NCBI GenBank assembly: GCA_963855995.1
Contig: OY979723.1
Location: forward strand, 10,297,013 to 10,361,012
Direction of reading: 5' to 3'
Length of the DNA: 64,000 bases
Origin: Muricea muricata
Lineage: Eukaryota > Cnidaria > Anthozoa > Malacalcyonacea > Plexauridae
Below the pieces are notes generated by a model. It had not been told where the DNA came from and did no database searches. It was given only the letters and a program-made list of their open reading frames with translations. This document shows positions 154 through 64,000 of this stretch, piece by piece. Both the position numbers and the translations under genes were made by a program. Every line of letters starts with the position of its first letter. Positions within the stretch are counted from its first letter, which is position 1.

Positions 154-1476
154 ATGGCAAACCACGACATCCACATCGACGATTGTCGCGACGTTTTCAC
201 GTTGTATGATCGTATGGGAGACAACAAAATACAAGTAGAAGAAGTGGGAGAAGTTTTGAGGGCATTGGGTTCAAACCCCACCGAAAGTGAATTGGCGAAG
301 CTCGCACAACAGTTCAAAGTCGGTAAAGATACGCGGATTTCGTTTGAGAAATTTTGGCCAATTTTTCAGGCCACAAAACCCAGGAAGTTGACAACAGGTG
401 AATCTCAGTTTCATTTTTGTTTCTATCGCTGGAGTGGTTTTGAAACAGTGCTTCAAATTTGCACGATTTCTTTGGCAAGTGAACGAATTGAGAAAACGGT
501 GGGCTAAGTAGGCATCACTAATCAATATGTTCAATTATGTCCAACTCTAAGCAGTTATCAGTAATTTGTGTTTGATTTCGTGTAAAAGTTTGTAATCGAT
601 TCAGCCAGTTTATGATGAAGCAATTGTTGTTATTATTGCCTTATCCATCGGTGCAACAGTTGTTTGTTCAGTTGTGATAATACAAATGTAATTGGTGATA
701 AAGATATTCTGACACAAAGCCCCCTTCAAACGGCTATCCCATTTACAAATTTAGAGTTTAATTTTGGATGTGCAGCCATCCAAAACCACGTGGCTGAGGT
801 CATTACATTGCATATTGGTAAAATTATTTGGAGTTAGACGGAATATAAACGTGTTGAAGAGCAAAATTCTGGTCAAAATGCATCTATTTCCTAGACAAAA
901 CCAGGAAGTAGTTCCTTTTGATATTTGTCCGCCGGAAAACCCGAGTGGAGAAGTCCAATATTGTACGCGTGAATGCCTTTCAAATGTCAAATTGTCGGAA
1001 GAAACTGTGTCTGTGGAATGAGACGCGAATTTGCGAGAGTTTGCACAAGCAGCTTAGCCCCCAGGACAAACAAGGACAAGAGTTGATGAAAGTTCACTAG
1101 ATATTGCTTCTAAAATGAGCTTTTGTTTTAGCTTGTGCTTACGTCACTAGTGAGGACTACACTTTTAAACGTCTTAAAAATTTGAAGCTCAGTGTTAATC
1201 AGAATAATCAAACTCGAGCGAAATTGGGGCTCGAACCTTCTAACGATCAATTTTTTCAAATTTCTTTCAGCTATGAAAGCATCATTTGTGGAATGCTTCA
1301 AAGTGTTCGACAGGAATTCAAACGGCACAATCAGCTCAGCAGAATTTCGACAGTTGCTTACAAATCTTGGAGACAAACTAAGCGAAGAAGAGGTCGATTT
1401 GCTTTTGGCCGGGCAAGAAGACCAAAATGGACAGATACATTATGAGAATCTCGTTGCTTCAATAACTTCGGTGTAA
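154..1476 (+). CDS. Myosin essential light chain (two exons, complete)
   Basis: Exons 154-397 and 1271-1476, joined in phase 1 (ACA G|CT), give 149 residues, the usual length of a non-muscle or muscle essential light chain (MYL6 type). The product would clamp the first IQ motif of a myosin heavy-chain lever arm in the cytoplasm. EF-hand loop 1 (residues 19-30) starts DRMGDNKIQVEE and lacks several acidic ligands, as in most myosin light chains. Loop 3 (residues 95-106, DRNSNGTISSAE) keeps D, N, N, T, S and E at the ligand positions and could still bind a divalent ion. The C-terminal EEVDLLLAGQEDQNGQIHYE block matches the family closely. The donor is AG|gtgaat and the acceptor tttctttcag. The start is the first ATG of the frame, about 40 bp after in-frame stops. 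Calmodulin or centrin are less likely because only one loop looks competent. Confidence 0.88.
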
Positions 1477-1977
1477 AAATGATGAAAGTAATCCGAATTG
1501 ATTGAGGCAATACATTATTGTAAATAATTCTCAATATACACATGCACAAACAAAAAGTTGTCAGCATCTCTTGTAAGATTAATTTCATTTGTGATCCCTA
1601 ATAAATCATCAGTATCACTAAAATTTGTAAAATTAATACGAAATCTTTCTGTTTTAATTTCAATTTTGACACGATTTCTTTCAATTCACATTATCAAGCT
1701 TAATTTACATAATGTAATATATTGGTCATTGTATAGTAGCAAAAGTAGCAATGAATACTTTATCTTTTTTGGTACACAACATCGGAGACATTTGGTATCA
1801 TCTCTGTCTACAGAGTTCTAAACGCCGTAAGTACGAATAGCTATTGCTAGAAACAAAGCTGAAACTGAAAATACGCGTTTTCTTGAAAACAAGGTAGAAA
1901 TTGAAAGTATGCGTTTTCTTGAAAACAAGGTAGAAATTGAAAGTATGCGTTTTCTTACTTTTCTATCTAACATAGGT
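1477..1977. other. Convergent intergenic gap
   Basis: This lies between the 3' ends of the light-chain gene and the SUI1 gene. It is AT-rich with AATAAA-like runs and no convincing reading frame. The only structure is the 36-bp repeat listed separately. Confidence 0.6.
1875..1956. repeat. 36-bp tandem repeat, about 2.3 copies
   Basis: The motif GCGTTTTCTTGAAAACAAGG begins at 1875 and 1911 and is cut short at 1947. The copies are nearly identical, so the duplication is recent. It sits just past the stop codon of the minus-strand SUI1 gene. Confidence 0.85.
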
Positions 1978-2433
1978 TTATTTTACACAGGGATGTTTAC
2001 TGAAAAATTCGTCCACAAATTTCTGTTGGTCTCCCTGCAGTTCTATAAACGTGCCACGCGAGACGCCTCCCACGCCCAAGCGTTTACGCAGCTCTGCCAG
2101 CAATAATTCGCCATTGCCACTGACGTTAGAAATAACAGTCACTTTTTTTCCTTTTGAGCGATTTTCGTAGCTTATTGGTAATTTTCCTTTCTTTGTACGC
2201 GTCACGGTATATTCCTGAATTTGTTCTGAACTTTGAGGAGCTTCCGTGGGAAAACTATCGTTGGCCGTTTGAGCCTGGGCATCTGTATTCGCTATTTCAT
2301 CATTTTCTTGTGAAAATATAGCTTGTGGTCCATTTCTAGCTTTCGGTAGAAAGGCACCAAATGTTAAATCAGCCGGTCGTCCTGCGTACTCTTCTCTTCC
2401 ATCGCCGGATTTCTTCTTGCCCCTTTTTGGCAT
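1978..2433 (-). CDS. Stand-alone SUI1/YciH-like translation-initiation-factor-family protein
   Basis: Single-exon frame of 151 residues. The N-terminus is basic (MPKRGKKKSGDGREEYAG) and is followed by a low-complexity, Q/T/E-rich linker. A SUI1 fold occupies roughly residues 75-148, with the typical signature of basic strand, V-x-V-I-S-N, L-L-A-E-L-R-K-R-L-G-V-G-G, then G-T-F-I-E-L-Q-G-D-Q and a C-terminal helix. The GGxxxxxxIELQGDQ element is shared by eIF1 and bacterial YciH. Family members bind the small ribosomal subunit and affect start-codon choice. Whether this protein does so is inference. It is not canonical eIF1, which is about 113 residues and ends differently. No intron or frame damage is visible. 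It diverges from ABTB1. Confidence 0.8.
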   Translation of the reverse strand: MPKRGKKKSGDGREEYAGRPADLTFGAFLPKARNGPQAIFSQENDEIANTDAQAQTANDSFPTEAPQSSEQIQEYTVTRTKKGKLPISYENRSKGKKVTVISNVSGNGELLLAELRKRLGVGGVSRGTFIELQGDQQKFVDEFFSKHPCVK

Positions 2434-2867
2434 GATTTATTTGACAAAACGATAAAATCCACTCCTACGAGGGAGCCATTTTGTTCTTATATATGCAGAA
2501 AAGAAAGATATCAGCATTCGGCGCATGCTATGCTATGTGGAAATATTGGCAGAACAAGAGTCGTGGGCTCATTTTTATGCAAAATAGTACGTGAAAATAT
2601 TTTAAAATTGTAAACAAAAAGAAATCAAACATATATACGTTCAAACAGGTCTCTCACGTACACGTATAATATACAGCCACACACGGCGATTTTGGTGGAA
2701 TTTCTGGAAAGTACCACTGTACTTGGAGGTGTATGATGTGTATGCTTTATGGCTGTCGTGGTTTTCTGCAGTATAAAGAATTGGGGCGAATGAGGGTGCT
2801 TGGAAAACGTACAGAAAGGGAATCGTTTTAAACCAAAAAGTCATAATTGCAGGGAGGGAATACGGAA
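2434..2867. promoter_or_regulatory. Divergent upstream region shared by SUI1-like gene and ABTB1
   Basis: 434 bp separate the two start codons on opposite strands. No TATA box or other firm motif is recognised. The promoter role rests only on the head-to-head arrangement. Confidence 0.4.
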
Positions 2868-5800
2868 ATGGATGTCGCAGAATTATTTCGCTGTTGCAGA
2901 ACGGGTGATATTGGGACACTCAGGTATTTGCTTTCAAGTAGAAATTCATCTCTACATGCAAATATTTTATATTGTATTTACAAAGTAGGCTTCCAAATAC
3001 GCCGTATACCGTCCGCACATAATTTTTGCACTGACTTCAAAAATGCCACAAGTCAGCAGTGATTATAAATGCTACAAGTGTCAAGAAATTCAGACGTTCA
3101 TGCTAAATTTAACACGACTGGCATAATGAGTGCGCACTTTATATAGTAGTTTTAGTGGGAGCTTATTGTCTGAATTTCTTCATTCTTGAGTGTCATTTGT
3201 TGACACTTGCAATAGACCTGTTATCAACATAGCAAGCAGTTATCAAGATATCTGTTGCAAGTTGTCAAAAGACTTGTCCAAAGTTGATTGTCGAAGCTTG
3301 TAATCCAGGGGTTTATTTGCAGCAAGTTATTTCAGCAACTTGTGAAAATTCTGCAAATGACAAGTTGCAACAAATCTGATCTTAAAAGACATCTTGCAGC
3401 TTAATGTTGTTGCAAGTTGTTGAAGAGTGGTAGAAAACTGGTGAAACTGACAGTCTGGCATTTTGGCATTTGTTATTGGTTAATTATTAACTACCGGTAC
3501 ATTTCAATCTCCTGTAATGTCAATTATCTCCAGTGAGTTCTGGCTAGACCTTTAAAATATTGGTTTAAGTGCATCCTTAGTTGGGGGAGGGGGAGGGGGA
3601 TATTCCTCTATGGACTTCTCAAATTGCCAACTATAAAAATTCTGGTAGCAAATTTACCAGTGATTTACAGCTGATTTACCTACAATTAGTCTCATTTTTG
3701 GTAATACTTCACCATAGCACTAATTATATTAATGTTAGAATGTTAATTAGAGGTGTGTATTTTCATGTATTCAGGTTGTGCAGGTACCTAACTAAACTTT
3801 TGAAATCTGTTGTTATTAGAGTTGATTTCAAAAGAAATTAGTCTGGCAGAACGAGAGGAATATACATCCCTCCCAATTAACATTCTAGTGCTGGCCTTGT
3901 CTCTCATCATATCACAGATATCATCTTAACCATCTGTTGTTTGAAGAAAAACATGTAAACGTTGTGATGTTTTGCACATGATATGTGTGTTTAACATGCA
4001 GACTTGACCTCAAATTAAATGGTAATTAAATATGATTTATAGGTACCTTATAGATGTAAAGGATATTGAAGTGAATGTTCGAGATAGCTGGGATAGCACT
4101 CCATTGTAAGAAGTTTTCTTGCCTACCTTTAGATTATAGATAAACCTAGCTGTTTATGTTTACCCAGGGGTGTTTGATACAAAATTATTCAGGCAGGGGG
4201 GGACACCTATCACAGTGGGCACATCGTTATTGTTGAATGCAGTTGAATTGAATCAAAATGAAAGCATGTTTTTGTACTATTTTGCTGTAAAGACTGTTGC
4301 AGGACTGAGTAACTAGTACGTATCAATCAAACATGATCCCTGAATGTTCACTACCTGAATGTTCACTGCTTGGCAGTGAAAGTAGAAGGGGGTGGGGGGA
4401 GCTAATATTCCTAATCCCCCCAAACTTATTGATCTTCCACTGGTACTATTCAACTTTCTTTTTAATATTTCTTGACTAGATACTATGCATGTTTATGTGG
4501 ACATGAAGAAATGGTTGAACTGCTCTTAAAGAATGGTGAGGGTGTTTTGATTTCATTTGAAAGTTTAAGCTTTATTTTTCCTATCAATACACTCAATTCA
4601 TAATTCAATAGGTTCTCGTTGCGAGGCAAATACGTTTGATGGAGAACGATGTCTTTATGGAGCACTGACTGATCGGATCAGAAGAATTTTACAGCAATAC
4701 AACGCAGTCAGTTCAGATTCCATGAGACGTGAGTCATACTCAGAGTTTCTGCGAAGGTAAAGCCACTACATTGATGAAATTTTTCTGAAAAAATTGATAA
4801 TTCACGAGGAAAACAGAAGATGCCTTTTCAAGCTATTTAAAACACTCACAGCTCGTGTTTTATCAAATGTAAAAAGCTCGCGCTTCGTTTACATCGGGAG
4901 CTCTTGTTACTTTTAAAGTTCTAAGGCCGTTATGGTATACTATGCTACGGAAGGCGAAAAACGCTATCAACCAGATGACATTTTTTCGGAACTGCCACAG
5001 AAAGGCATAAACAGCATGAATGAAGCCAGAGATATTGAACTTGCGAGCGATAAAAAGTGACTGTACTTCGAAAATGCTGAAATTTAATATGGGTTTTGAA
5101 CAAATTCTGTTTACTGTAGCATTTCCGGTACTAAAAAGTGAACTTATGTTTTTGTTTAAATGTGAGACGGATATTTGCTTTGCGTGTGAATTATAAAAAT
5201 TCTCATATGACAATGTTAAGAGTTAAACTACTCTCTTATTAAACAGATCATTTGAGCAAGGAATGTTTGCGGATATTTATTTTGTTGTGCACGGGGTCAC
5301 AATTCCTGCACATCGTGTGATCTTGGCCGCAAGGTCCGCCTATTTGTCACAAATGTTGCACACCAAATGGCAAGAGAAAATGGTATTTTTTCCAAGAACG
5401 ACCGAGGCAAGTGCTGGGGAAAATATATACTGCTGGGGCCGGTTGTACGAAAGGTGGATAAAGTTATCCACCGGATAGCGACTTTTTCAAACGTCCTAAA
5501 ATTGTTGATTTACTGGAATGGTCAAATCTAGTGTTTAGCATTTTAAAGTTGAAGAGGGAACTTATAATTTGGCTAAAGTATATTAAGTTTTATTGTACTT
5601 AAAATCATTTTTAAGACAGGATAAAAAATCACTATTCAGTGGATAGCATTATCCATCTTTCGTACAACCGACCCCAGAGCTCTATCATCAAAACGACTAC
5701 AATTAGGGAATGATGTACGTTACATATACAGAGTGTACGAAGAAAAAGTTTAGATTTTGAATTTTATTGTAAGATTTTGAATTCTTCACCAGCAGACAAA

Positions 5801-8800
5801 TTTCAGAAACATGAGGTGAAAAAATACTCCGAATTATAATGTCATCAGTAAACTCAAGATATGAGCTATGTAAATAGAATAAGACACAACTTTTAGCTGT
5901 GATATTTCAACCCTGAAATAGAGCCGAAATATTACCACAGACTCTAATTTGTGTCTTGTTGCATTTAAATAGCTCATATCCTGAGTTTACAAGACTTTTT
6001 TCATGCAAGAACTTGAATGCCTTGGCATTATACTAAACCCCTTCAATCTAACATACTTGCATTTTGTTTTTGTAGTTTAATCCTGGACAATTTCGAAACA
6101 TGCTCAAATACTTTTACACTGGTGAGTACATAGAACAAGATTAACAAACATATCTTAAGTTGACCATATTTTGAGTCAAAAAGCCTCTTTTTTAGGGAAG
6201 TTGGATGTTCGTTTTGAAGAGCACGAAGCCTATCTCAACCTCGCCCGACAGTTTGAACTGTGGCATCTGAAGAAATTGATTGAATTACGTCTGGATAAAG
6301 CGAAGATGTTTGGTAGGTGTATGTCGAAATCTAAATAGGAAACAATAGGGATGCCAGAAATGTGGTGAGGGGGAGGGGGGGCAAACATGTGCCTTTTCAT
6401 TGAAAAACTGTGTTGATCTAAACGACAGTGTTCTTTAGGAATAGAACTGTTTTTTATATCATGTGGTTTCATTTTTAGGTGCTTCCAAACGAGGTTTTGC
6501 ACGAGTGACCATGATTAATATTGATCCATCTTTGGAGGGGAGGAACGATAAAGAAGATTTTACCAAAATTGCTGAAGTCGCTTTACCCGAACCTTTTAGG
6601 TCACAGCAGCTTCCTGAGGAGTCTCTGTTTATTTCACATCTGCTAGGTGACTACACCATTTTAGAAACTTACTTTTGACAGGAGTGGATTTATTGGAGGT
6701 GGGGGTCGCACCCACGTAGGCCTTGTCAGATGGGGGGGGGAGTATTTTTCACGATGAAGTACAGATGATACACTACAGTAAATTTTGATTTTTGTTTTAG
6801 TCCTTTGGATGTATGATCCTATGATCCTCAATTACAGTATGGTTGCAAAAAATACTCACGTTTATTTTGAAGGGCGCGTGACACACATGACTAAGACTGG
6901 CACAACTCAGGTAGAGCAGACAGAACACCCCTTCCCCCACCAGATCATGGTAAATCCATCCCTGAATGTGTCTCAATTCCTTATCAAATCTTCATGCTAT
7001 ATTGAAAAGTTACATACATATAGTTTTATCTTTAGGTGATGTCGATTATGAACTTGATGACTTTTCTGATGTTTGTTTTGATGTTCAAGGTTACGAGTTT
7101 CATTGTAACAAGGTGAGGGCTATAGTGTCGGCGGTTGAAATGTTGCTGTTAGCGTGGTGCTATGATTCCGTGTCCCTGAAGTCATTCAAGGCAGTTCCAG
7201 GCTCAAATCTCAAACGCAGCTTAACTGCAAGCTGACACACCCGCCACAGTTGAATCGTTTCCCAACCGGTCAGCGATTACTCTACATATATTACCATTTC
7301 CTTATTACTTTGTTGCTGAAAAGTGGCATCGTAACATAAATTTTATCTTTCTTGCCAGGTATTTCTTTGTCATCGTAGTGATTATTTTAAAGCTTTGTTC
7401 GAGTTCTCTGACACTGCTGCGACCAATCAGAATCACTATCGTATTGCAATTCATGATGTCACACCGGCAGTCTTTGCAATCGTTGTCGCTTTTTTATACC
7501 TGGATGACGCTGTGGTAAGGATGAGTCTCAGAGGTTGTTTAAGGCCATTTTCCATTACGGTCGCGTTGCCCGCGTGGGTCAAGGGTGCATTGTTTTTGTA
7601 ACTCTTCACTCCCGCGTGAGCACATTTTCAATACAAAGCGGGGTGCGAAGTCCAGCAAGGATCGATCATCTCTTATATTGATCCAATGTTACTACAGGAG
7701 GAAACGTGAACTAAACTAACATTATGAAACTAATGTCTGCAAACTCAATTTTCCCCCAGCATGTTTGCCTTTGCCGCCAGTAACAAATTTTTGACAAGTT
7801 AGCCTTTACTCTGGCGGACATTAGCTCAGCTATTGGCTCCAATAGCTGACAAATTTTCCGTTTGGTTTCGGTTTTGAATCTCGATTTTTTACTCGCCACA
7901 AATCCGACGTGAATAGTTAACTCAGTTGATCTGTCACCATCGCTCATAATCACCCCGTCCAAATGGCATTATGGCTGTATCTCTGTAATAGCTTTTCATG
8001 TGTACCTGGGGTCCGGGACTGTAAGTAGCATACTTTTATCCACTTTGTTGAGCATTGTTGACGTTTCAAGCATGTCTTATCTACACTTGATACGTATACC
8101 TTACAAAAACCGCAAAACTTCCCTCCTTCATGCAGATACCGTACGATTTTGACGAAATCTGTAACGTGATTTGTGCCGCTGATATGTACCTGCTGGCCGG
8201 TCTGAAACGACTTTGTACCAATGCTATGATAAAAGTACTTGATGTCAGCAATGTTGTTGAGGCTGTTCGTATGAGCAAGACTTTTTCTATGCCCCGATTG
8301 GAGTGTGAGTGTTGCCGTTATATCGCTGAATACGTGGACGAGGTGAGGACAGAATTTTGATTAATTGTTTCAATGTACACGTGGAGCAAAACCCCGCGTA
8401 TAAGAACGTACATTTTAAGAATGTTTTAGGTTAAGATTGCGTTTTCCTAGCCATAGATTTGACTCAGAACATGCAAATTTGACTCAGTTAGACACTGCAT
8501 GTATGTCTTTACACAATGTCTTTATACACCGTATATAAAGGACATACGCTACCTCCGAACAAAAACAATATGCTATTGAGGCTAACTTGAAAAATTTAGG
8601 TTTTTACACGCGAGGTTTTACTGTACGACCAACACTGAAATAGTTGAGGGTAAATAGATTATGTTGCACTTTACTTGAAGTTGAAAAGCTAACACATTTA
8701 CTCGTTAGAAATTATTCAACATCTGAAGTGAGTGAGGTGGCACAAAATCATTTTTCAACTGCTGCAGAAAGGCATAAAAACAAACTCAGCCCCGAAAGTA

Positions 8801-12103: not shown

Positions 12104-15100
12104 ATGGCGGCTGCGAAATGGGGCGATGAAAGTGTACAGAAATGTTTAATCGAGAAAAACAGCCCAGAAAGAAGTGTAAATAACAATTTGGCAGTGAAAG
12201 AGAATTGTAAAGATTTACTAAAAGTTGCCCCGAGACGAGGTTGGTAAATTTAGTACAGTGATACAGTCTAGAGATCGGATGGAATATATTAGTGCTCATT
12301 TAGATTTAGTCGTTTGACAATTTCATGCTGGATTCATTATTCTTATATACACTTTAGAATTTGATATATATCTACTGGATAAAAATAAAGCAGATACTCA
12401 GCGCAAGACATTTAAACCATCCACATGCCAGGGTAAGTGCAATGTGAACTGTGCAGTCAGTTTAACAGTATAGAGGAAATAAACAGTAGGACCACGTGCA
12501 GTGCCAGATTGGAAAATTTGTAAAATGCGTGGGTGAAATTGACGAAATTTAATACAAAATATATATAAGACATCAAAACTGCGTGGGCGATTTCTCGCCC
12601 GCACACTACAAACTTTCCAATCTGGCCACAGTGGTCAGACTGCATTCCATGCATTCAACGCCGAAGATCTTCGGCGTGGATTTATCAAAACCCAATTGTA
12701 AATATAGTAAATATTGGCGTATCTTTGGCATGGAGTTTACATGGAATGCACTCTGGCACAGTGGGCTTGCAAATTCAGCCAGACTGGAAAGTTTGCAAAT
12801 TGTGCGCCCGAGATAAAAAATTCACGTGAATTTTGCGTGCCCAGTTTTAGGGAACAAACAGACTAGCACACCCACCTATTTTTATGCAATTGACTGACCA
12901 AAACCTGCATAATGAACATGCGTAATGCGATATGCACGACTGCACTTCAAAGGTTCCAACTCGAGTGAGCCTTCTGTTTATTTTTTATTCTGTGTCAGTA
13001 CATATGTTAATCTCTCTCGTTGACTCAAAGTTGGCCAATTCATGTGGGAGTGTAGGAATTCCAGTCATTCCCAGTTCAACAAGCCAGTATGATGTCATAA
13101 TTGTTATGTCTTTGAGTGCACACATGTAGCAACTAACACGTCATACCCCTTAAGTTCTTTAATGATATGCATTTGTCAAAGTTATATCAAAACACAACAT
13201 TTATAGTGGACTATTTACAAATAATTGATAAAATCTTTGTTTAAAGATTATTTACACTTTGGCAATTTCACCACAAAAGGCCTACAATTTCTATTGCAAT
13301 TCTTGATTGATGTGAATGAGTGGATTAATAACAAATGTTCTGAGTTTATGACTCTCCACCAGAACATTTTGTGATTGGTTCACTTGTTCACATCTATCAA
13401 AAAGAGAAAAGTATAAAGAAGTCCATAATTATTATGTAGACCCGAGTAACAAAAATAATGTAGACTTTGTTAACCTATAGCCCATATTGTTTACTATTTA
13501 AGTCTCATTCCACAACTGTAACATCATTGTCTGTAGTTTTAGAAGTGTCTTTCTTTCTTGGCAACCGTAAATATTTGCATTTTTGGGCCATTGTTCCTTT
13601 AATTGCCTTGGGTTTAACGTCCGGAAACCTTTTTTGCACTGTTTCTGCAAAAGAAATATTTCAAAACTTAGTCCTAACTTTTGCAGATGTAAACAGACTT
13701 TTGGGTACATTGCTAGAATTATAAATCAGTTCCTATTTGCTTGAAAAGGATTGAGTCAGGGTTGTTTCTGAGACAATAGTTTTTGTGTATTATACTTTAT
13801 TTCTTATTCCCTTTGTGTGTACTTTACAAACTTTTATACGAAGTAAAATGTTTACCTACTATTTTTCATTGTTTACTATTTTTTTTATTTTCATGTATTA
13901 CTGTAGATGTCAAAAAATTATCACTTGTTCTCAAAGTTGATGAAAACATGATTGAACAATGTTTTAATTGCTCCACGTTGTTCATAATTGTTAACAATGT
14001 TGAACAAAATATGGCTGAGTATGAATCAGGTGTAACAATGCTGCACAATATTGTTGACCACCATTAACATTGTCATCAGGGAAACATTGTTCAATCCTGT
14101 TTTACCAATCTTGAATACCAGTCATGCACCCATCAAATGTTTTGGCAAAAATATAGAAAATATATTCTGTTCTTCAATATACAGTATTTACAAAATATCA
14201 GTGACTATTAAATATGTTCTATACATCTAGTACAGCAATTGCAAAGCTAAAAGTATTCATGTCTATCAATTTGTTCAGGTTTTACTATCATAGAACATAA
14301 AGCTTTTTTTCGCCTTGAATCTTTTAATTTTTGCGCCATCACCTGCTTAATATCTGTAGCTTTTGCATTTGGAAATTTGTAACAGACATAATCTACAAAC
14401 AATCAATGTATTTTAGAATAAATGGGCCAAAAGTGATAACAATTGGGTGTCCTACTACCATTTACATGGTCTGACCATGCAAAGAAACTGGCAAAATTCA
14501 AGAGTAAATTAGCTGTCATATTCAAGTGTAATGTTAAAATTAACTTTAGTACGTCTGAAAACGCCACTTTTGAATGATTTCTTTCTTTAAACTGCCATTC
14601 TTGCTTTTAAAATGCTGATCATAGTGGTCTGACTAGTAGATGGTAAATGCCTTTGAAAAGGCTTTTTTACACAAGTGCAGGGATTTTAGTTGGCTGGTGA
14701 ACTTCAAATTTTGCTACACTTTCATTCAATTCCACCCAAATTCACCAGAGGTTTAAGCTTCCACTATATGTAGAGGTTTAATCTTGCTTCATACAATAGC
14801 TATTAGTAAAACAAAAAGCCTGAAAACCCTGAAAAGTTACATATAAAGTTGTGTAGACCAGTTATACCTATAATGTAATCAACAATTGCCTTGTCCAGTG
14901 GTTGCCGTCCCTCTTTTGCTGCAGAACCTCCTGAACCAGTGACACTGGATACCTTGAGTGTTTCTTTGTCAAAGAAATGACACAGCAATGCCAATGTCAT
15001 CTTTCTGTATGTTGCTGCATATGACACCTCCAATGGTATCGTGAAAGGTGTACTTGTTTGTTCCTAAAATTGTGGGAAAACTATCTTGATATGCCTATTT

Positions 15101-18100
15101 CTCATGTATATGCAACCTACACTGAACAAGCATTGTCACAGAGTAGTATGATACAGAAAGTCATCTGAGCTATTGTATTTTATGTAAGCATTATTTGTCA
15201 TCAATTTGCACTGACTAAAGCCTAGTCATAACTCGTAGCGAAGTCATTCTGGATGATGCAATATAGTGTAGATTACCTTTTATTATGTGAGCTGTTTTTA
15301 ATTAGTCATACTATGTGTAGATTAGCATACATACTTTATCACATTGGTCACTTTGATCTATTCACAACATTCACAAGTGTAACCCCCCCCCCCCCCCCCC
15401 CCCCCCCGTTGAAAATATTTACAATTATAATGATGGATTATTGATATTTCCTATGCTGTAGCAATGTAATGTTATTGTTGATCTTAAAATATGACTGGTC
15501 TGGGAAGCAGACATGTAGTGATCTTAAAATTTTCCTTCATTTATCAAACACTGAGAAAATGTTTGAAGTGCTTTTTACTTACTGATGTAGAAGTTCCTGC
15601 TCTTGGTGTGAGCAATCTGCTGCTAGCTCTTGGGGTTAAAGAAAGTGGCCAATTTTTCCCATTTTCAGTTGCAGCAGCAGCCGATGTGTTCAGTGAGGTG
15701 TTGTCTGCATCAGAAGGTAGTGTCACTGAAAATTCAGTATCTGGTGTTGATGGTGGGCTACCAGCAAACGAATGAACACTAACTATGCTGGGGGATGTTA
15801 CCATGGATATATTTGAAGGTGTGTTAAGAGGGCTGGTGTGTGATGAACGGGCTTCCGAAGTGATTGTTGATATTGCTGGCATTGTGGTGACAGTTGCTAT
15901 GCTATTTGTGGTAGATGGTTCATCGTCTGCGGTCATGCTTGGTTCATCATCTATAATGGATGTATCAGCTTCGATATTCCCATATAACTGCTCACAATTC
16001 GGACATGTTCTCAGCTGTGTGATGACTTTACTTGATTGCATTGCATTTCGAAGTAATTGTGGAAGGCCTAGAAAATCAAGTTTAAATTGATAATGCGGAA
16101 GGTTATAATTAATGCAAAAAACTACACTATGCTAAATACTCACATTTTTGTAATGTTTGGTTTAACGTCTGTAATTCCCTCACTTTTGCTCTCTCAGATG
16201 ACAATTCCTCCATAAGTTTGGATACTTTCTGCCGTAATCCGGAAGCAGAGGACAAGTCTTCATGTCCATTAACTCCATTATCCAACCTTGGCCTCTTTAA
16301 GGGACTGCTTGAAGGCATAACTGCAATGTCATCCTCAACAAACTCGCTCTCTTCAGACAACAATAGGTTTTGATGTTCTTCAAGGAGCTTTCTGTCATCT
16401 GCAAAAACAAGGAAATCAATAACTATGGGCCTGTTTTTGAATGTTTTTATCTTGCTTTGGCGAGAAACTTTCCAAGAGTGTTTAAATAGGTGACAACAGA
16501 TGCCACAATCTCCCCAAGGTGGGATATTAGTGGAATCATATACACTCACTAGAGTTTACATGACCAAAGAATCTTCACTACTGCCCCATGCGAGTTAGGT
16601 GGGATCACATAAACAGATTCTAAGTGAAGAAGGGTTAATGGAATGGGCAAGTTTTTTACTGCCAGACTTGAAATTTTTGGAAAGCCTCCTGCATTGTGAC
16701 TGGAATATGGAAGTTTTTCAAAGTAACAAATTGTTAAATTAAAATATATATGGACTTGTAGAATGTAATTTTGTCACATGTTAATAATATACATACATGG
16801 ACCATATATGATACCTTGATAGCCTAATTGCTACAAATCATATGATACTAAACATATTTCTAGGATTTGAATGAGATAAAAACTACGAACCGCTAATGCA
16901 AGCGATACGGCCAAGTTTTCCTTTATTTTTGACGGTCGACACATCTCCACGTTGTACAGTCACAAAAGAAATAAGTCCTTCCTTCGTGCAGTCGTGGAGC
17001 ATACTTTTATCGCGCACATAGTTTTCTGTTAAAATACTGGATTTGATATTTCCTGAACTCCACTGGACAAGAACGTATTTCATTGCCACAGGTTAATGTA
17101 AAAAGTATGTTAAAAATATCGAAATAGTCGCTCGATCGTGGTGTTTTGATGTTGAGAATTAATTTCACACGCGTTCTTCTCACAAAGGCTCCACCATTGA
17201 AGTGAATAAAACTGGAACGCTAACTGCTATAGTTAAGCCCTATGATTGGTTGAAGCCAGTTTTCCCCAAATGGATTTTCACTCCCCCCCGGAAACGGGAA
17301 GGGAGCGTGCTCGAAGCGATCGAAACTGGCAAAATATGTTCGATGTAAAATAGTACAATTTTGCTGCCTTTTTCTTCCGTGTTTTGGATGATGTATGAAT
17401 TTAGAAAAGTCTTCAGCTTATAAGAAATGGGACGGAGTTGAAAGATTGTAAAAATGAGAACGATCTTTGTTATTTTAAACGGAATATAATTCAGAAAAGC
17501 GCGTGTCGGTTAAATATTAACAACGCCATATAAAGACAGCAAAACACACAAAGATAAGTGCAAATATTTATTATATTTTACTGGTTTTGAAACAAAATTA
17601 ATTTGGTTAAGTGAAATCTGTCGCTTTGTTTTCCATTTTCAACAACAGTTTGACAATAACGCTTGCCGTACGTAAACAGTCGGAGTGTGAAGTACTTGTC
17701 GGCAGTATACTTGATCAATTTCATCCTGTGGTCTTCATCGAAGCCAACTTCGTTCATTCCGGGATCATGATCTCCAAAGATATTCAAATGGCACGACTCA
17801 TTGACAACGAAATGATGACAGACTTGCATGATCATTTTACTGCGTAGCTTCTCGCTTGAATTGATGTGTCTCCCATCCTTGGCGACAAACGCTTTAAAAA
17901 TATGTTCAGCATATTTGACAACAGCGAAGACTGATTGCGAGGGAATGGTTAAACCGCCTCTGTTGATGAACAGTGTGAACGCCGAGGCTCTTGGAGCAGC
18001 AGAATGTTGTGTGGTTTTCATACCGCAGTAATCATGATCGAGTGATTGAGTTGACGTACTTGAAATTAAAGAACTTCTACAAGCTGTGCAGGAAATTAAT

Positions 18101-21100
18101 GTTATCAACTTGGTTACTATATATCCACTGATGTAAAACAGAATGTTTTCCATGAATTCTGAATGCCCTCTTTCCTCTAACTGTTCAACAAGCAGCTGCT
18201 CTTCTGGTGTGAAGCCGGAATCATTTTCTGGTGTTTCTTCGACAAGTGGAGATCTGTGTTTTCTCTTGTGGAAAATTGGAATTATTCCTGAGGTAAAACT
18301 TTCTGAAAAGTCTATGCAGTTAGAATTTTTCGAGGCTTTTACTGCATTCCTGAAAAGCATTTGTCTGAGGGTGTATTTCAACTGCATGCTGTTGGGATTG
18401 TTATTCCAACCACCCTTTGATCGTAGACAAGAAAACAGCAACTCTAAGTGATCTTGCGAGAACTTATAGGTTAGAAGATAGTGAAAAGGATTTTCTTTAA
18501 GTGAAAACATTTCATTTGCCATTTGGATTGTTGATTTTATTGTGGCAACAAAACCAATAATAAATGTTTTTCTCTTGTGAGTAGAAAGAAGCTTTTGCTT
18601 TTTATTTTTTCCTTTTTGTTTTGTAACCAGTGATAGTAGATATTCTGCTGCTGATTTCAGGTGATTTTCCCATGTGTCTTTTGATTTGGGTTGCAGAGGC
18701 TGCTTATATCCCTTTGCCTGAGGACATCTTGAATTTAGAATGTCAAATGTTCTGTCGATAACTCTTGTAAAGTTTACTGTTGGCCCACTATTTTTAAACT
18801 GTGGTAGCTTCATCGAAACATCCAGAAATTGGATTGCATCTGCCACTGATGAGCTAAGGGTTTGTGCAGCTAAACGCACATTCATCTTGTGTTTTTGATA
18901 TTCTAGGTGTTGTGCTGAGAATTTGTTCCCTAATTTCAACCCTTGTTCATCTTGAAGACTGTGAAGAAGATGAAAGAACTTCCATTGAATTTCACCCCCG
19001 TCTTCATCATGAAAAGAACCCATGCTGGCGAGGGCATTTCTGGCAAGTTTTAACATGTGGCATGGATCCAATATTATGTAGACATTGTAATTCTGTGATG
19101 GATGTTTGAATGTGGTCACCATAGAGTCATATGTTGTACTAAATATGCATCCTAATTGAGTAAATGTGCTGATATTGACACATGTTCCATCAGCAGTTAT
19201 TGACCATACCCTTAATCCTGCATCTGCTGCTTTTTCCAAGGCCAACCTGACCAGCTGTGCTTGGGTTTTGGCATTCATCTTATCTGATAAAAAATAACCA
19301 ATTGGACACTTCCACCGGGTTCTTGTTCCAACCAATATGAAAACTAACGATTCAGATGCAAGGGTTTCGGGATCTTCAGGTGGTACTGGGCCATAATTAA
19401 CAAAACCTGAGTATTTTTCTTTCTTTGGGTCCCACAATGTTTGTTTCCTTATTGACATGGCATCAATAATGAGACAACAATCTTTTTTGGATGGTATTTT
19501 TTCTGCCTCACTTTGCAGTGACTGGAAAGCCTCCTGTAGGAAACCTGGCTCGCAATCTACTGAGCTTGACCACTTACGAATTAAGGATGGGTTTGGCAAT
19601 GGTATGATCGACCTCACATATTCATATGCTTTGGGGGAGTAGAAGTATAATGTTAGTGAGAATTCTTTGATGTCGTCGGTGTATCGTCGACCACAAGGAG
19701 AGATGGTGGTGTTGTTTTTGGCATTGTTGAAAATGGATAGTTGCAACTTATCGAACGAAGCATGTAATCTGTCAGCAATTTCGGTTTTGACAATCAAATT
19801 CTGCTCTAAGCTGGTGATCAGATCTGACATGTTGGCAATTTTTGATTTGCATCGACGCAGTTGTTGTTGTAAGTTTCTAATTTTAGACTTCAATTGCCTT
19901 TTCGATATTTCTGTATCATTGCTTTTCGGCCTAGAGACTTTTTCATAATTCATGTTTATTTGTACTTTCGCTGGCTGTGAGGTGGTGTCTTGCTGCCTGG
20001 CTCGTTTCTGCCCGGTGTAAACCGGTGTGTTCTCACATTTTTGCAGTCGTTCTTTTGCTTCCTCTGAGATATGGATTGGTTCTTGTATCTTAAATAATGA
20101 GGGTATGGCATTCCTTTTAAGCCTGCATGAAAGTGAATCAGCTGTTGGTGGTTTAATGTAGTCATCCTTTTCAAAATGCTTGCTGCAAATAAAACTATGC
20201 TGTGTTGCTCTCCATTCATTTCCACCATTTCTTACTCTCTTGACCACTTTCTCCCATTTTTCTAACAGCTCCTTGTTCTTTAAGGGGAACCTTAAAATTT
20301 ATATATTACTATATTGTAAATGTAAATTGTCATGCTATACCATTATATGCATATATACACTGTGTGTGATGATTTTTTTTTTATCTATTTATAGGTATAT
20401 TTATGCACATATAGACTTACCTGTGATAGGCTACATGCCCTATTGGTTCTTCGTTTTCCTTATTTTTACTACCCCTGCTTCCACAAACAACACAATTGTA
20501 AGGCATACCCTATATACGTTGGTTTTATCTTTTTCCTCTGTATAATATAGCTTTTTAAGTTTTTTTATGAAAACTCGGACAAACTCTGACGTCAGCGTCC
20601 AATGTTTATATTATGTTTTTTAAACAATATTTCTGTAATTTTTTAAATGCATCTTATGTAAATGTTTAAAGTTCAATCTTCATGAAACTTGGCATACAGT
20701 TGTATTTTACATGGGTTTAAATAGTTCTTGAGGTTTGACGTCTTAATTTTATTTCAAACTTTCAAAAACTCAGAAAAAGGGCCCTAAAACGCGCGGTTTT
20801 GGGGACTTTTCATTCTTATGGTCGTGTTTTTTCGTGTTTTTTTGCTATTTTGTGCTTCGTTTGGTTTGCGATTATTAAGCTCGTTTGTCAAAGAACTGAT
20901 ATAAATCAAATTTTGCGTTCTATGTAATATTTTTGGGCAAGTTTTTTCTGATTATAAAATGTGTATATTTTGGAAAAAATTGTTCAAAAGGGACTGGGTC
21001 TACCTACAAAGAAAGCTTTAAACACGGCTTCAACTTCCCCCCCTGAGTTAGCGTTCCAGTTTTATTCACTTCAATGGGCTCCACACACAAAAAAAGAACA

Positions 21101-25160: not shown

Positions 25161-25530
25161 CTCTGCTGACAGCCGTGTTGTACTACAGTATACTACTAGA
25201 GTCTTGGCTGGCAGCCATGTTGTACTACAGTATACTAATAGAGCCTTGGCTGGCAGCCGTGTTGTACTACAGTATACTACTAGAGTCTTGGCTGGCAGTT
25301 GTGTTGTACTACAGTATACTACCAGAGCCTTGGCTGGCAGCCGTGTTGTAGTACAGTATACTACTAGGGTCTTGGCTGGCAGCCATGTTGTACTACAGTA
25401 TACTAATAGAGCCTTGGCTGGCAGCCGTGTTGTAATACAGTATACTACTAGAGTCTTGGCTGGCAGCCTTGTTGTACTACAGTATACTACATGAGTTCGG
25501 TTGGCATCCGTGTTGTACTACAGTTTGCAT
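25160..25530. repeat. 42-bp minisatellite, about 8-9 copies
   Basis: The unit TTGGCTGGCAGCCATGTTGT plus ACTACAGTATACTACTAGAG repeats at 25204, 25246, 25288 and onward. Because 42 is divisible by three, frames stay open and give a repeated SWLAAVLYYSILLE peptide. I regard these frames as artefacts. Confidence 0.93.
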
Positions 25531-44529: not shown

Positions 44530-45372
44530 GAGCCAGATGCCCGGTCACCAGTGCCAGATGACCAGATGTCAGGCGACTAGTTCCAGATGTCAGGCGACCA
44601 GTGCCAGATGTCAGATGACCAGTTCCAGATGACCAGATGTCAGATGACCAGTTCCAGATGACCAGATGTCAGATGACCAGTGCCAGATGACCAGATACCA
44701 GACGACCAGGGCAGATGACCAGATGTCAGACGACCAGTGCCAGATGACCAGATGTCAGACGACCAGTGCCAGATGACCAGATACCAGACGACCAGGGCAG
44801 ATGACCAGATGTCAGACGACCAGTGCCAGATGACCAGATGTCAGATGACCAGTTCCAGATTCAAGACGACCAGTGCCAGCTGTCAGACGACCAGTGCCAG
44901 ATGACCAGACGACCAGTGCCAGATGACCAGATGTCAGACGGCCAGTGCCAGATGACCAGATGCCAGACGACCAGGGCAGATGACTAGATGTCAGACGACC
45001 AGTGCCAGATGACCAGATGACCAGACGACCAGTGCCAGATGCCAGATGACCAGATGTCAGGCGACCAGTGCCAGACCGATGCCAGACGACCAGTGCCAGC
45101 TGTCAGACGACCAGTGCCAGCTGTCAGACGACCAGTGATGCCAGACGACCAGTGCCAGATGACCAGACGACCAGTGCCAGATGACCAGATGTAAGACGAC
45201 CAGTGCCAGATGACCAGATTCCAGACAGCAAGTACCAGATGTCGGACGACCAGGGAAGATAACCAGATGTCAGACGACCAGTACCAGACGACTAGATGCC
45301 AGACGTACAGTACCAGATGACCAAATGCCAGATAAGCAGTGCCAGATGACCAGATGCCTGACGAATGACAGC
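44530..45372. repeat. Minisatellite of CCAGATGACCAGATGTCAGACGACCAGTG type
   Basis: About 840 bp built from two short modules, GATGACCAGATGTCA and GACGACCAGTGCCA, in shuffled order with variable unit length. The 132-codon minus-strand frame (GIWSSGTAYLAFG, HLVLYVWHLVVWYWSS) is a by-product of the repeat. Confidence 0.93.
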
Positions 45373-61213: not shown

Positions 61214-64000
61214 ATGTTACGTGGTGGTTATAATGTGCAGTTCGAAGGTACTGTTGTAAGGAGTACCCCGGAGCCAACCTTACTGACCAGAGAGAACGAT
61301 GTTCAGCGTGATCAAGGATGGTCTTGGATCGTGTTGTTCGCAGCATTTTTAACATTGTTCATAACTAATGGCATGCACGCATCGTTTGGCATCTTGTACG
61401 CGGCGCTGATCTCTCATTTCAATTCTGGACGCGAGGAGACGGGTACGTCACAAATGAATTGGTAAACTGGAAACTTAATGACTGCGACAAACCTGAAAAC
61501 ATAATTTAATAACATTTCTGAAAGATAGCAAAACCAGGACACATTGTTTCCTAGCCAAGTTTGTGCCTGAGAGCAAATAAATCAAGAAAATTTCGCGTGC
61601 GAAATTCTGTCTAGTTGAAAACAACAGACAAAACTGGAATTAAACATTGCTTCTTAGCTATATTTCCTAAAAGTTGACAAACCAGGAAACATTGTTTCCT
61701 AGCCATGTTTTCTGAAGGTAGACAAACCAGGAAACATTTTTTCCTAAACATGTTTCATGAAAGTGGACTAACCAGTAAACATTTTTTCCAAACCATGTTT
61801 CGTGAAGGTGGACTAACAGGTAAACATTGTTTTCAAGCCATGTTTTCTGAGGGTGGACAAACCAGGAAATGCATGGCAAGTAGCGTTTGAATACTTCAAT
61901 AAAAAATTTATGTCAGCAAAAATGCTTTAACGATATTTTAAAAAATATCGGTTTTTAAATTATATTTTACAGCTTGGATTGGTTCGATATCTCTTGGTTT
62001 ACTGTGCTTCTTCAGTCCTGTGGCCAGTGTTCTCATCGAACAGATCGGATGTCGTGCTACGAGCATTATCGGAGCGTTTCTCTGTTCCCTGGGTTTCCTC
62101 ATAACATCGTTTGCGACCGGTATAGCTTTGCTTTATTTCTCTCACGGCTTGCTCTTCGGCTTGGGCACGAGTCTCACCTACACAGCTGCGATGACGGTGG
62201 TTTCGAGAAGTTTTGAAAGACGAAGAAATATTGCTACAGGTTAGTTACTGTTGAATACACCTTTCTCATTGGCTGAAAATTTTTCCCCAAGCCAATCATA
62301 TTTCATGTAACATCTCGAATCCCGCATTTGACGTCATTACGAGAAACGTCTAATAGAACTTTCGCGTTCTTCACAAAATGAGATTTTATACTGCTCTTTT
62401 GAACCTGGTTAAGTTGATTAGATTGGCAAAGTGAGAGTTCGCAGAAAAGTCTGAAATTTTCCTCAACTCTCATGTCCGTTGAAACGAGCCTGCAAACATG
62501 TTGTAACAAGTGTAGTTTGACTTGTTTCACCAGCACTTACCACAGTATTAGCATTTACAACCGGCTATATAAGTATACCAAAGTTTTTTGCTTATTTCAG
62601 ACATTTATTTCCAGGCCTCTGCACATCAGGAAGTCAGTTCGGAGGAATTTCTCTGGCACCGCTCTCGCAGGTTCTCTTCGATCGTCTGGGCTATGCTAAT
62701 ACATTCCGAACTTTTGCCGGTCTCTTACTGGTGGTTGCAATATCCAGTTTGGCATACAGATCAGAGCTTAGCGGAAATTCATCACGTTCCAGCTCGACCA
62801 AGAAGTCACCTAGGGAGATGCTGAGTGTTTGGAAGAGCAAGGCATACATCGTCTGGGTGTTGGCAACCACTCTGGTGATATTGGGCTACAACATTCCACG
62901 TTACACGTTGGTAAGTTGCATCATAGACATAAGGCCCTGTCACACGGTGCAATTTTTCTTGCAACTTGCAATGCAATTCTACTCTTAAGAGATGTAAAAT
63001 TGGTAAATACATGTTTCCATCACAGTTGGCCAATATATTTTTACATTTGTCACAAATTTACATCCGTTAAGAGTAGAATTGCGTTGCAAGTTGCAAGAAA
63101 AATTGCACCGTGTGACAGGGTCTATAGTCGTAGATAAGCAAAGGAATAATATAGAAACGCAGTAGTACACTCAAAACGCGGTAGAAACGCCACATACTTT
63201 GACTATGTGCACACGAGGTCGTTTCCGAGCGTTTTCACAACAGTCAAAATGAAAACGTTATGAGCTATAAAATTTCTCATCTTATGGGGTTTTCGGTTTT
63301 TGTCCTTAGTCGTGGTTTGTGCTGGTTTTCATTAAATTGTGTAAACAAGTCGGGAGCGTTTTGAAATAATTTGCAATGAAAACGCTCGGAAACGACCTCG
63401 TGTGTGTACGTAGCCTTTGATGCATGTTTTTCATCAAGTTGCATCAAACCTGTTGTTAGCTTCATCAAATTGCATTACCTCTGTGAATTCAGGCATCAAC
63501 TCTCTAAAAATGTTGCCATTAAGCCGGAGCAAGCGGTGCGAACGCATCCTGGTATCGGCTTGATAACTGCCAGGTAACAAGCCTGCAGCAGACGTGCTGA
63601 ATCCAGTGTGTCTTTAGCTGTATATTCATGAGTACTGTTTGCACTCCCAGGCAAAATATGCGAGCGACCAAGGGATTTCAAAAGACGCATCAGCCTGGCT
63701 CGTGTCGTATCTTTGTGCTTCCTCCGCCATCGGTCGGATCACGTTCGGGCGTTTGTGTGAATGGATACCAAATCTTTACTTGTGTCAAGTATGCATCGTA
63801 GGTTGTGCTGTATCCACGTTGCTCTACCCGTTTCTCAAGTCATACTTGGGCCTGGTTATCACAGCTATCGTATTCGGTCTTCCTGATGGTGGTTTTGTTG
63901 CCTCTCTCTCTGTCATTACCACCGAAATTGTTGGTCCGGAAAAGATGGTGGAAGGTTTTGGATTCATGCTGTTTTGCCAGTCGTATTCTAATGTTCTGGG
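61214..64000 (+). CDS. SLC16/monocarboxylate-transporter-family protein (5' four exons, truncated by window end)
   Basis: Exons 61214-61442, 61973-62239, 62615-62910 and 63651 to beyond 64000. Phases agree and 380 residues are visible. A cytosolic N-terminus is followed by DQGWSWIVLFAAFLTLF (33-49), the family motif [D/E]G[G/S][F/W]GW at TM1. The second MCT signature before TM5 reads SRSFERRRNIATGLCTSGSQ (155 onward). TM segments 1-6 are followed by a serine/lysine-rich loop (SELSGNSSRSSSTKKSPREM) and TM7-10 (WLVSYLCASSAIGRITFGRL, GLPDGGFVASLSVITTEIVG). MCTs are major-facilitator transporters of lactate, pyruvate, ketone bodies or other small organic acids. Substrate cannot be told from this part. 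The 3' end is missing. Confidence 0.88.
61640..61880. repeat. 45-bp tandem repeat in SLC16 intron 1, about five copies
   Basis: Units start AAACCAGGAAACATTGTTTC at 61679 and 61724 and continue at 45-bp spacing with drift, each ending CATGTTTTCTGAAGGTAGAC or similar. It is the same family as 9305-9515. The two 60-70-codon frames over it are repeat artefacts. Confidence 0.9.
62935..63120. mobile_element. Fold-back MITE 1 in SLC16 intron 3
   Basis: Ends CCCTGTCACACGGTGCAATT and AATTGCACCGTGTGACAGGG are perfect inverses. The arms continue for about 65 bp through TTGCAACTTGCAA and TCTACTCTTAA. Non-coding. Confidence 0.9.
63203..63413. mobile_element. Fold-back MITE 2 in SLC16 intron 3
   Basis: CACACGAGGTCGTTTCCGAG then CGTTTTCA at the left is inverted as TGAAAACG then CTCGGAAACGACCTCGTGTG at the right. 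The arms are about 33 bp. Confidence 0.9.

Follow-up and report, generated by a model that had tools for sequence, protein, structure and literature searches.

The genome of the octocoral Muricea muricata (GCA_963855995.1; 453 Mb in 74 contigs) carries what is very probably an autonomous DNA transposon of the P superfamily that has made a cut-and-paste move very recently. It lies in the window analyzed here, a stretch of 64,000 nucleotides (contig OY979723.1, here C8:10297013-10361012), where it occupies positions 17195-21076 (3882 bp); positions refer to the window unless a contig is named. Its ends, its protein domains and further copies in the genome make the assignment to the P superfamily firm. 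Two features go beyond the initial annotation of this DNA: the ends carry a subterminal motif behind spacers of unequal length, and the element belongs to a large related family in which this asymmetry recurs.

The element is bounded by two copies of the 8-bp target-site duplication GGCTCCAC (17187-17194 and 21077-21084). Its terminal inverted repeats (TIRs) are perfect, 17195-17225 (plus strand) being the reverse complement of 21046-21076 (minus strand) at 31/31 bases. An inverted-repeat scan reports the same pair as a perfect 32-nt repeat because the last C and the first G of the duplication complement each other by coincidence. The transposase gene lies on the minus strand, with the right TIR on its 5' (promoter) side and the left TIR on its 3' side. 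Behind the left TIR, a 23-bp spacer (17226-17248, plus strand) leads to the 9-mer GTTGAAGCC (17249-17257, plus strand); behind the right TIR, the 11-bp spacer CAGGGGGGGAA (21035-21045, minus strand) leads to the same 9-mer (21026-21034, minus strand), in the same orientation relative to the end. We refer to these as the long-spacer and short-spacer ends. The 9-mer is kept across families and is a candidate binding site for the THAP domain of the transposase. Of 11 loose matches to P ends in the window, only the two that belong to this element have the motif after them.

The predicted transposase is a protein of 932 amino acids encoded in two exons. Exon 1 (20421-20506, minus strand) holds the ATG and the first two THAP zinc ligands, C5 and C8. 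It is followed by a predicted 130-bp GT-AG intron (20291-20420, minus strand; GTAAGT...TTTAAG) and by exon 2 (17578-20290, minus strand), which ends with the stop codon and encodes the remaining THAP domain, a coiled coil, a helix-turn-helix (HTH) domain, RNase H, a GTP-binding insertion domain and a C-terminal domain. Pfam matches above cut-off cover THAP (PF05485, E 2e-14; residues 5-95), the P-element HTH (Tnp_P_element; 189-269), RNase H N (275-409), the GTP-binding insertion domain (439-560) and RNase H C (637-667), the RNase H and GTP-binding domains being PF21787, PF21788 and PF21789. All eight THAP signature residues listed in PMC4168063 are present, namely the C2CH ligands C5, C8, C64 and H67 together with P31, W41, F68 and P92. 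The closest solved relative is the Drosophila P transposase (6p5a, E 8e-24), whose catalytic residues D230, D303 and E531 align to D305, D396 and E645 of the coral protein; these putative catalytic residues are invariant in 6/6 aligned families. Seven of eight residues described as GTP or DNA contacts in Drosophila (D528, K385, K400, V401, S409, F443, D444 and N447; roles from PMC7776569) are kept when read off the 6p5a alignment, the eighth, K400, corresponding to N499. In pairwise comparisons of five families, the proportion of nonsynonymous differences (pN 0.20-0.33) lies far under that of synonymous differences (pS 0.77-0.85, saturated), which indicates that the transposase protein is under selection. 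The initial annotation had proposed, from the letters alone, a P element with perfect 31-bp ends, an identical 8-bp duplication on both sides and an open two-exon THAP/P transposase with all its zinc ligands and the D, D and E at 305, 396 and 645. Each of these points is confirmed, the ends to the base.

Searching the genome with the DNA of the element returned 67 matches, from which nine near-full-length copies and nine fragments or relatives were fetched. The 31-mer end, with up to 3 mismatches allowed, occurs at 24 places in the genome (16 perfect), against 0 for the reversed control; together with the presence of the same ends next to different duplications elsewhere, this excludes chance. 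The count of 24 also implies that the window family is low-copy and has no swarm of short derivatives of its own. Three copies, L001 (the window copy), L002 and L003, have 2 to 4 differences per 3882 bases and intact frames. They are spread over two contigs, have different flanks and carry their own perfect 8-bp duplications (GGCTCCAC, CCTGTGTA and GTGTTCAC, respectively). The six other near-full-length copies (L004-L009) are 1.8-2.8% from L001, and every one of their frames is broken. The duplication is perfect in 8/9 near-full-length copies, among which L007 and L008 share one site, and has one mismatch in L009.

One of the young copies also has an empty site. The L003 insertion interrupts a non-autonomous element, 0.9 kb long, from a related P family (approximately 1437-6249 of the L003 locus, the right boundary being approximate). 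Over 120 bp without gaps, its joined flanks are 99.2% identical to L069/L070 (two views of one element) and 98.3% identical to L071, versus 94-95%, with gaps, for other members of the 0.9-kb family. L069/L070 and L071 thus represent a paralogous empty site for the L003 insertion. The initial annotation had suggested a search with the 31-bp terminus for further copies and empty sites: the genome searches yielded further copies, comparison of joined flanks an empty site for one of them, and comparison of the duplications gave each young copy its own 8-mer. A very recent insertion of the window element is supported by the two further copies, 99.9% identical, with open frames and different duplications; its possible mobility, also suggested at the outset, still holds, and is suggested by the near-identical copies and the empty site of one of them.

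The same data bear on three other explanations. A domesticated THAP9-type host gene that had retained terminal repeats by chance might also show an intact transposase frame and constraint between families, but this account is contradicted by the finding of the same ends at several loci, next to different target duplications, and by the paralogous empty site, and we regard it as highly improbable. The initial annotation had itself raised the doubts that the element might be present only once or that its TIRs might be an assembly artifact. Further copies contradict the former. As for the latter, one element multiplied in the assembly, or inverted ends created by mis-joining, could account for L007 and L008, which have one common duplication and are 3 bases apart; these two are probably one insertion copied with its flanks, a segmental duplicate. 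Flanks and duplications differ between L001, L002 and L003, which are spread over two contigs, and L001 and L003 have private substitutions; this makes an artifact very hard to credit.

A third explanation deserves more weight, namely that the element looks intact and no longer moves, the three near-identical copies stemming from one past burst and being now silenced or disabled by small changes. Only three intact copies of the window family were found, and the six other near-full-length copies that were fetched are broken. Two changes are private to the window copy, one of them F148S. The position of K400, a lysine that touches the transferred strand in Drosophila (PMC7776569) and is conserved in the zebrafish transposase (PMC10983969), is occupied by N in the window protein and in 4/5 aligned relatives (5/6 families). 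F148S and the N weigh against mobility. On the other hand, a divergence of 0.05-0.1% leaves little time for inactivation, and all five families that have the N also have an open exon-2 frame. Loss of mobility is thus possible but somewhat doubtful, and we favor a recently moved, autonomous element that may still be active.

The genome holds a large P assemblage, of which the window family is one branch with few copies. A protein search of the genome, in which 51 of 897 candidates were scored, gave at least 63 transposase matches. Among these, 14/63 are stop-free over nearly all of exon 2, the part of the gene that stop-free counts in relatives cover: three at 100% identity, three at 66-67%, six at 53-57% and two at 35-37%. 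Some further matches are stop-free yet partial. Complete ends flanked by a perfect 8-bp duplication were seen in families B (L075, 4264 bp), C (L016, 4692 bp) and D (L073, 4113 bp); L017, L018 and L076, with partial ends only, were left out of the counts. The terminal repeats of the related families that were measured are mostly 32 bp long. The end pattern GAACGMTAAST-N(5 to 34)-TGAAGCC, which allows for variable spacing, finds 1,560 exact matches in the genome (799 on the plus and 761 on the minus strand), against 1 for the reversed control; if each element contributes no more than two matches, the assemblage comprises on the order of 800 elements. The two distant transposases at 35-37% identity, with open exon 2, are located at C45:11926-14418 and C2:20183368-20185905 (L074). 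Two P families also adjoin at one locus, where the young copy L002 has a stop-free, 55%-identical transposase frame (C3:55337282-55339933) at a distance of about 1.3 kb. No relatives were found in viral contigs by the exact pattern, with 0/112 stretches confirmed by protein, nor in bacterial and archaeal genome contigs by the exact pattern.

Across these diverged families, the 9-bp subterminal motif NNTGAAGCC is separated from the terminal repeat by 11 bp at one end and by 22-23 bp at the other. Spacers were read on 100 listed matches of the 1,560, all from the first part of contig C1: 40 are 11 bp long, 21 are 22 and 20 are 23 (81/100). Facing pairs were defined as matches less than 6 kb apart, a short end having a spacer of at most 14 bp or a run of eight or more G. 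By this definition, 52/100 listed matches form 26 facing pairs, and all 26 combine one short with one long end. Thirty loci were fetched around the first matches, of which 17, corresponding to 11 elements, show, within 2.6 kb, the two ends together with a perfect 8-bp duplication, and 13 do not. Together with seven copies of the window family (leaving out L008, the duplicate of L007, and L009, whose duplication is imperfect) and one element each of families B, C and D, this gave 21 duplication-verified elements. With the best-matching motif defining the spacer at each end, 21/21 have one short and one long end, with a long spacer of 22 or 23 bp in all 21 and a short spacer of 11 bp in 16. Wherever the side could be read, in the four autonomous families A (the window family) to D, the short end is the one at the 5' (promoter) side of the transposase. 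The two common short-end types have spacers, CAGGGGGGGAA and TGGCCGCCATC, that are unrelated in sequence and both 11 bp long; among the 100 matches listed, each type is found opposite several long-end types and in no case opposite a short end. That spacer length is held while the sequence differs argues for a function.

A number of observations weigh against such a rule or against our main reading as a whole. The short spacer is 9, 13, 14, 15 or 17 bp long in 5/21 verified elements, all of the poly-G type, and the remaining 19/100 listed spacers measure 9, 10, 12, 14-18, 21, 25, 26 or 28 bp, 12 of these matches having runs of at least 8 G and 7 no long G run. The short end of family C has a degenerate motif, with 2/7 core mismatches. 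In the window element taken alone, a shared 9-mer in the 69 bases behind both end repeats arises in 5.6% of Markov shuffles, and in 2.4% at a similar offset; weak by itself, the 9-mer was retained on the strength of the other families and of the genome count. Ends of the known type were sought around L074, a 36% relative, and were not found. The first 400 bp of both ends hold no convincing counterpart of the 11-bp second subterminal inverted repeat of Drosophila P, only scattered shared 8-10-mers, and this repeat is not general to the P superfamily. The main weakness is that short elements formed by internal deletion inherit both parental ends, so that copies within a family are not independent.

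This weakness opens the way to an explanation by common descent only, in which the pairing of short with long spacers would follow no functional rule. The short elements (about 340, 437 and 905-932 bp) do come as families, and the 26 pairs are therefore not independent. Descent alone, however, sits poorly with the constant length of CAGGGGGGGAA and TGGCCGCCATC in the face of unrelated sequence, with the combination of both common short-end types with several long-end types, always short with long among the matches listed, and with the 12-bp difference between spacers in Drosophila (PMC7776569), and we consider it unlikely. On the simplest reading, the 9-mer serves as the THAP site and unlike ends are paired by the transposase; by analogy, we read the coral spacers as following the same unequal-end pairing rule as Drosophila P. 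The poly-G tract of one short-end type differs in length from copy to copy, for instance in L056, L045 and L047 (spacers of 9-17 bp among verified elements), which perhaps reflects slippage after insertion.

In the mechanism that we propose, the THAP domain of the spliced transposase would bind NNTGAAGCC at each end, and the protein would pair the end that has the 11-bp spacer with the end that has the 23-bp spacer, a short and a long end presumably both being needed. Cutting would be performed by the DDE RNase H site, probably with the use of GTP by the insertion domain, and the element would then be joined to a palindrome-like target, producing the 8-bp duplication. Among 20 insertion sites, position 1 of the duplication is G in 14/20 and position 8 is C in 13/20, and the GC content is 52% in the duplications versus 39.5% in the flanks. 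The symmetric pattern extends past the duplication, roughly as A.TGA[G......C]TCA.T. Palindromic targets have been described for P, 1360 and Galileo (PMC4168063).

The coral element shares with the P element of Drosophila melanogaster (6p5a/6pe2) perfect 31-bp ends, an 8-bp duplication, and a THAP, HTH and DDE RNase H transposase with a GTP-binding insertion. The two are also alike in anatomy in the unequal spacers between end repeat and internal site (a transposase binding site in Drosophila), which are 9 bp (5') and 21 bp (3') in Drosophila versus 11 and 23 here (PMC7776569). Canonical Drosophila P is cut in a GTP-dependent manner with a 17-nt stagger. They differ in length (2.9 kb versus 3.9 kb here), in gene structure (four spliced reading frames versus two predicted exons), in the lack of a clear 11-bp second inverted repeat in the coral element, in its N at the K400 position and in the sequence of the motif. 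The original footprints reportedly place the Drosophila spacers in the reverse orientation, and we draw no conclusion on orientation.

The P families and P-derived miniature inverted-repeat elements (P-MITEs) of Anopheles gambiae similarly have TIRs of 27-31 bp, 8-bp duplications and transposases of 876-895 amino acids, with several families side by side and short derivatives that include a composite (PMC1562414), whereas in the coral genome one exact end motif has 1,560 matches. Zebrafish Pdre2 (zfTHAP9) is likewise a complete element with a THAP9-type transposase, ends, an 8-bp duplication and deleted copies; it differs by its 13-bp TIRs, remote 12-bp subterminal repeats and the single full-length gene described, and its transposase gave excision but no transposition in the reported assays (PMC10983969, PMC7776569). 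The initial annotation had called a complete copy notable: the copy is indeed intact with its ends, but complete P elements outside flies were already known from zebrafish and Anopheles (PMC7776569, PMC1562414). Galileo has a P superfamily transposase with a THAP domain and a palindromic target preference as well, but long TIRs and mostly 7-bp duplications (PMC4168063). Two other assignments were rejected: a Galileo-type element, given the 31-bp TIR and 8-bp duplications, and a domesticated THAP9, defined as a gene without terminal repeats or mobile copies, given the ends and copies found.

Other features of the window and of the assembly were recorded as well. A possible ATG (17083, minus strand) of an open frame at 16886-17092 follows the insertion at a distance of about 100 bp, and a BEN domain is encoded downstream of this frame at 14806-15063 (minus strand); as a guess, frame and domain may be parts of one gene, which would then start some 100 bp from the element. 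Tandem arrays occur at 25165-25524 (42-bp units), 44604-45364 (29/86-bp) and 61642-61869 (45-bp). Contig C74 is mitochondrial, and its COX1 has AGA and AGG at positions that we take to be conserved arginines. ARAGORN (bacterial code) found no tRNA in 4.3 kb. Inspected by eye, the reading frames of C74 place nad1 and COX1 on one strand and cox2, atp8 and atp6 on the other, which fits the ancestral octocoral order (PMC6953674). On a nuclear contig, C1:38414782-38416095 matches COX1 with one TAA and probably represents mitochondrial DNA copied into the nucleus.

Detailed work on P elements has centered on flies and mosquitoes, and their human relative is domesticated. A literature search limited to open-licence papers found no cnidarian or octocoral P element, and the titles and abstracts listed contained no spacer measurement outside Drosophila. 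The three near-identical intact octocoral copies offer a transposase and ends that can be tested far from flies, and the surrounding family provides natural material for asking which end architectures transpose. The unequal-spacer idea, so far argued from Drosophila, is thereby carried to a distant animal and tied in with the comparison to V(D)J recombination and its signals of 12 and 23 bp. We judge it about evenly balanced whether P elements of distant animals share a V(D)J-like end rule, in which a 31-32 bp repeat is followed by a spacer that has one fixed length at one end and is about one helical turn longer at the other (11/22-23 here, 9/21 in the fly) and only the combination of short and long is mobile; the approximately 1,560 natural ends in this genome, in their several combinations, would then be a record of that rule.

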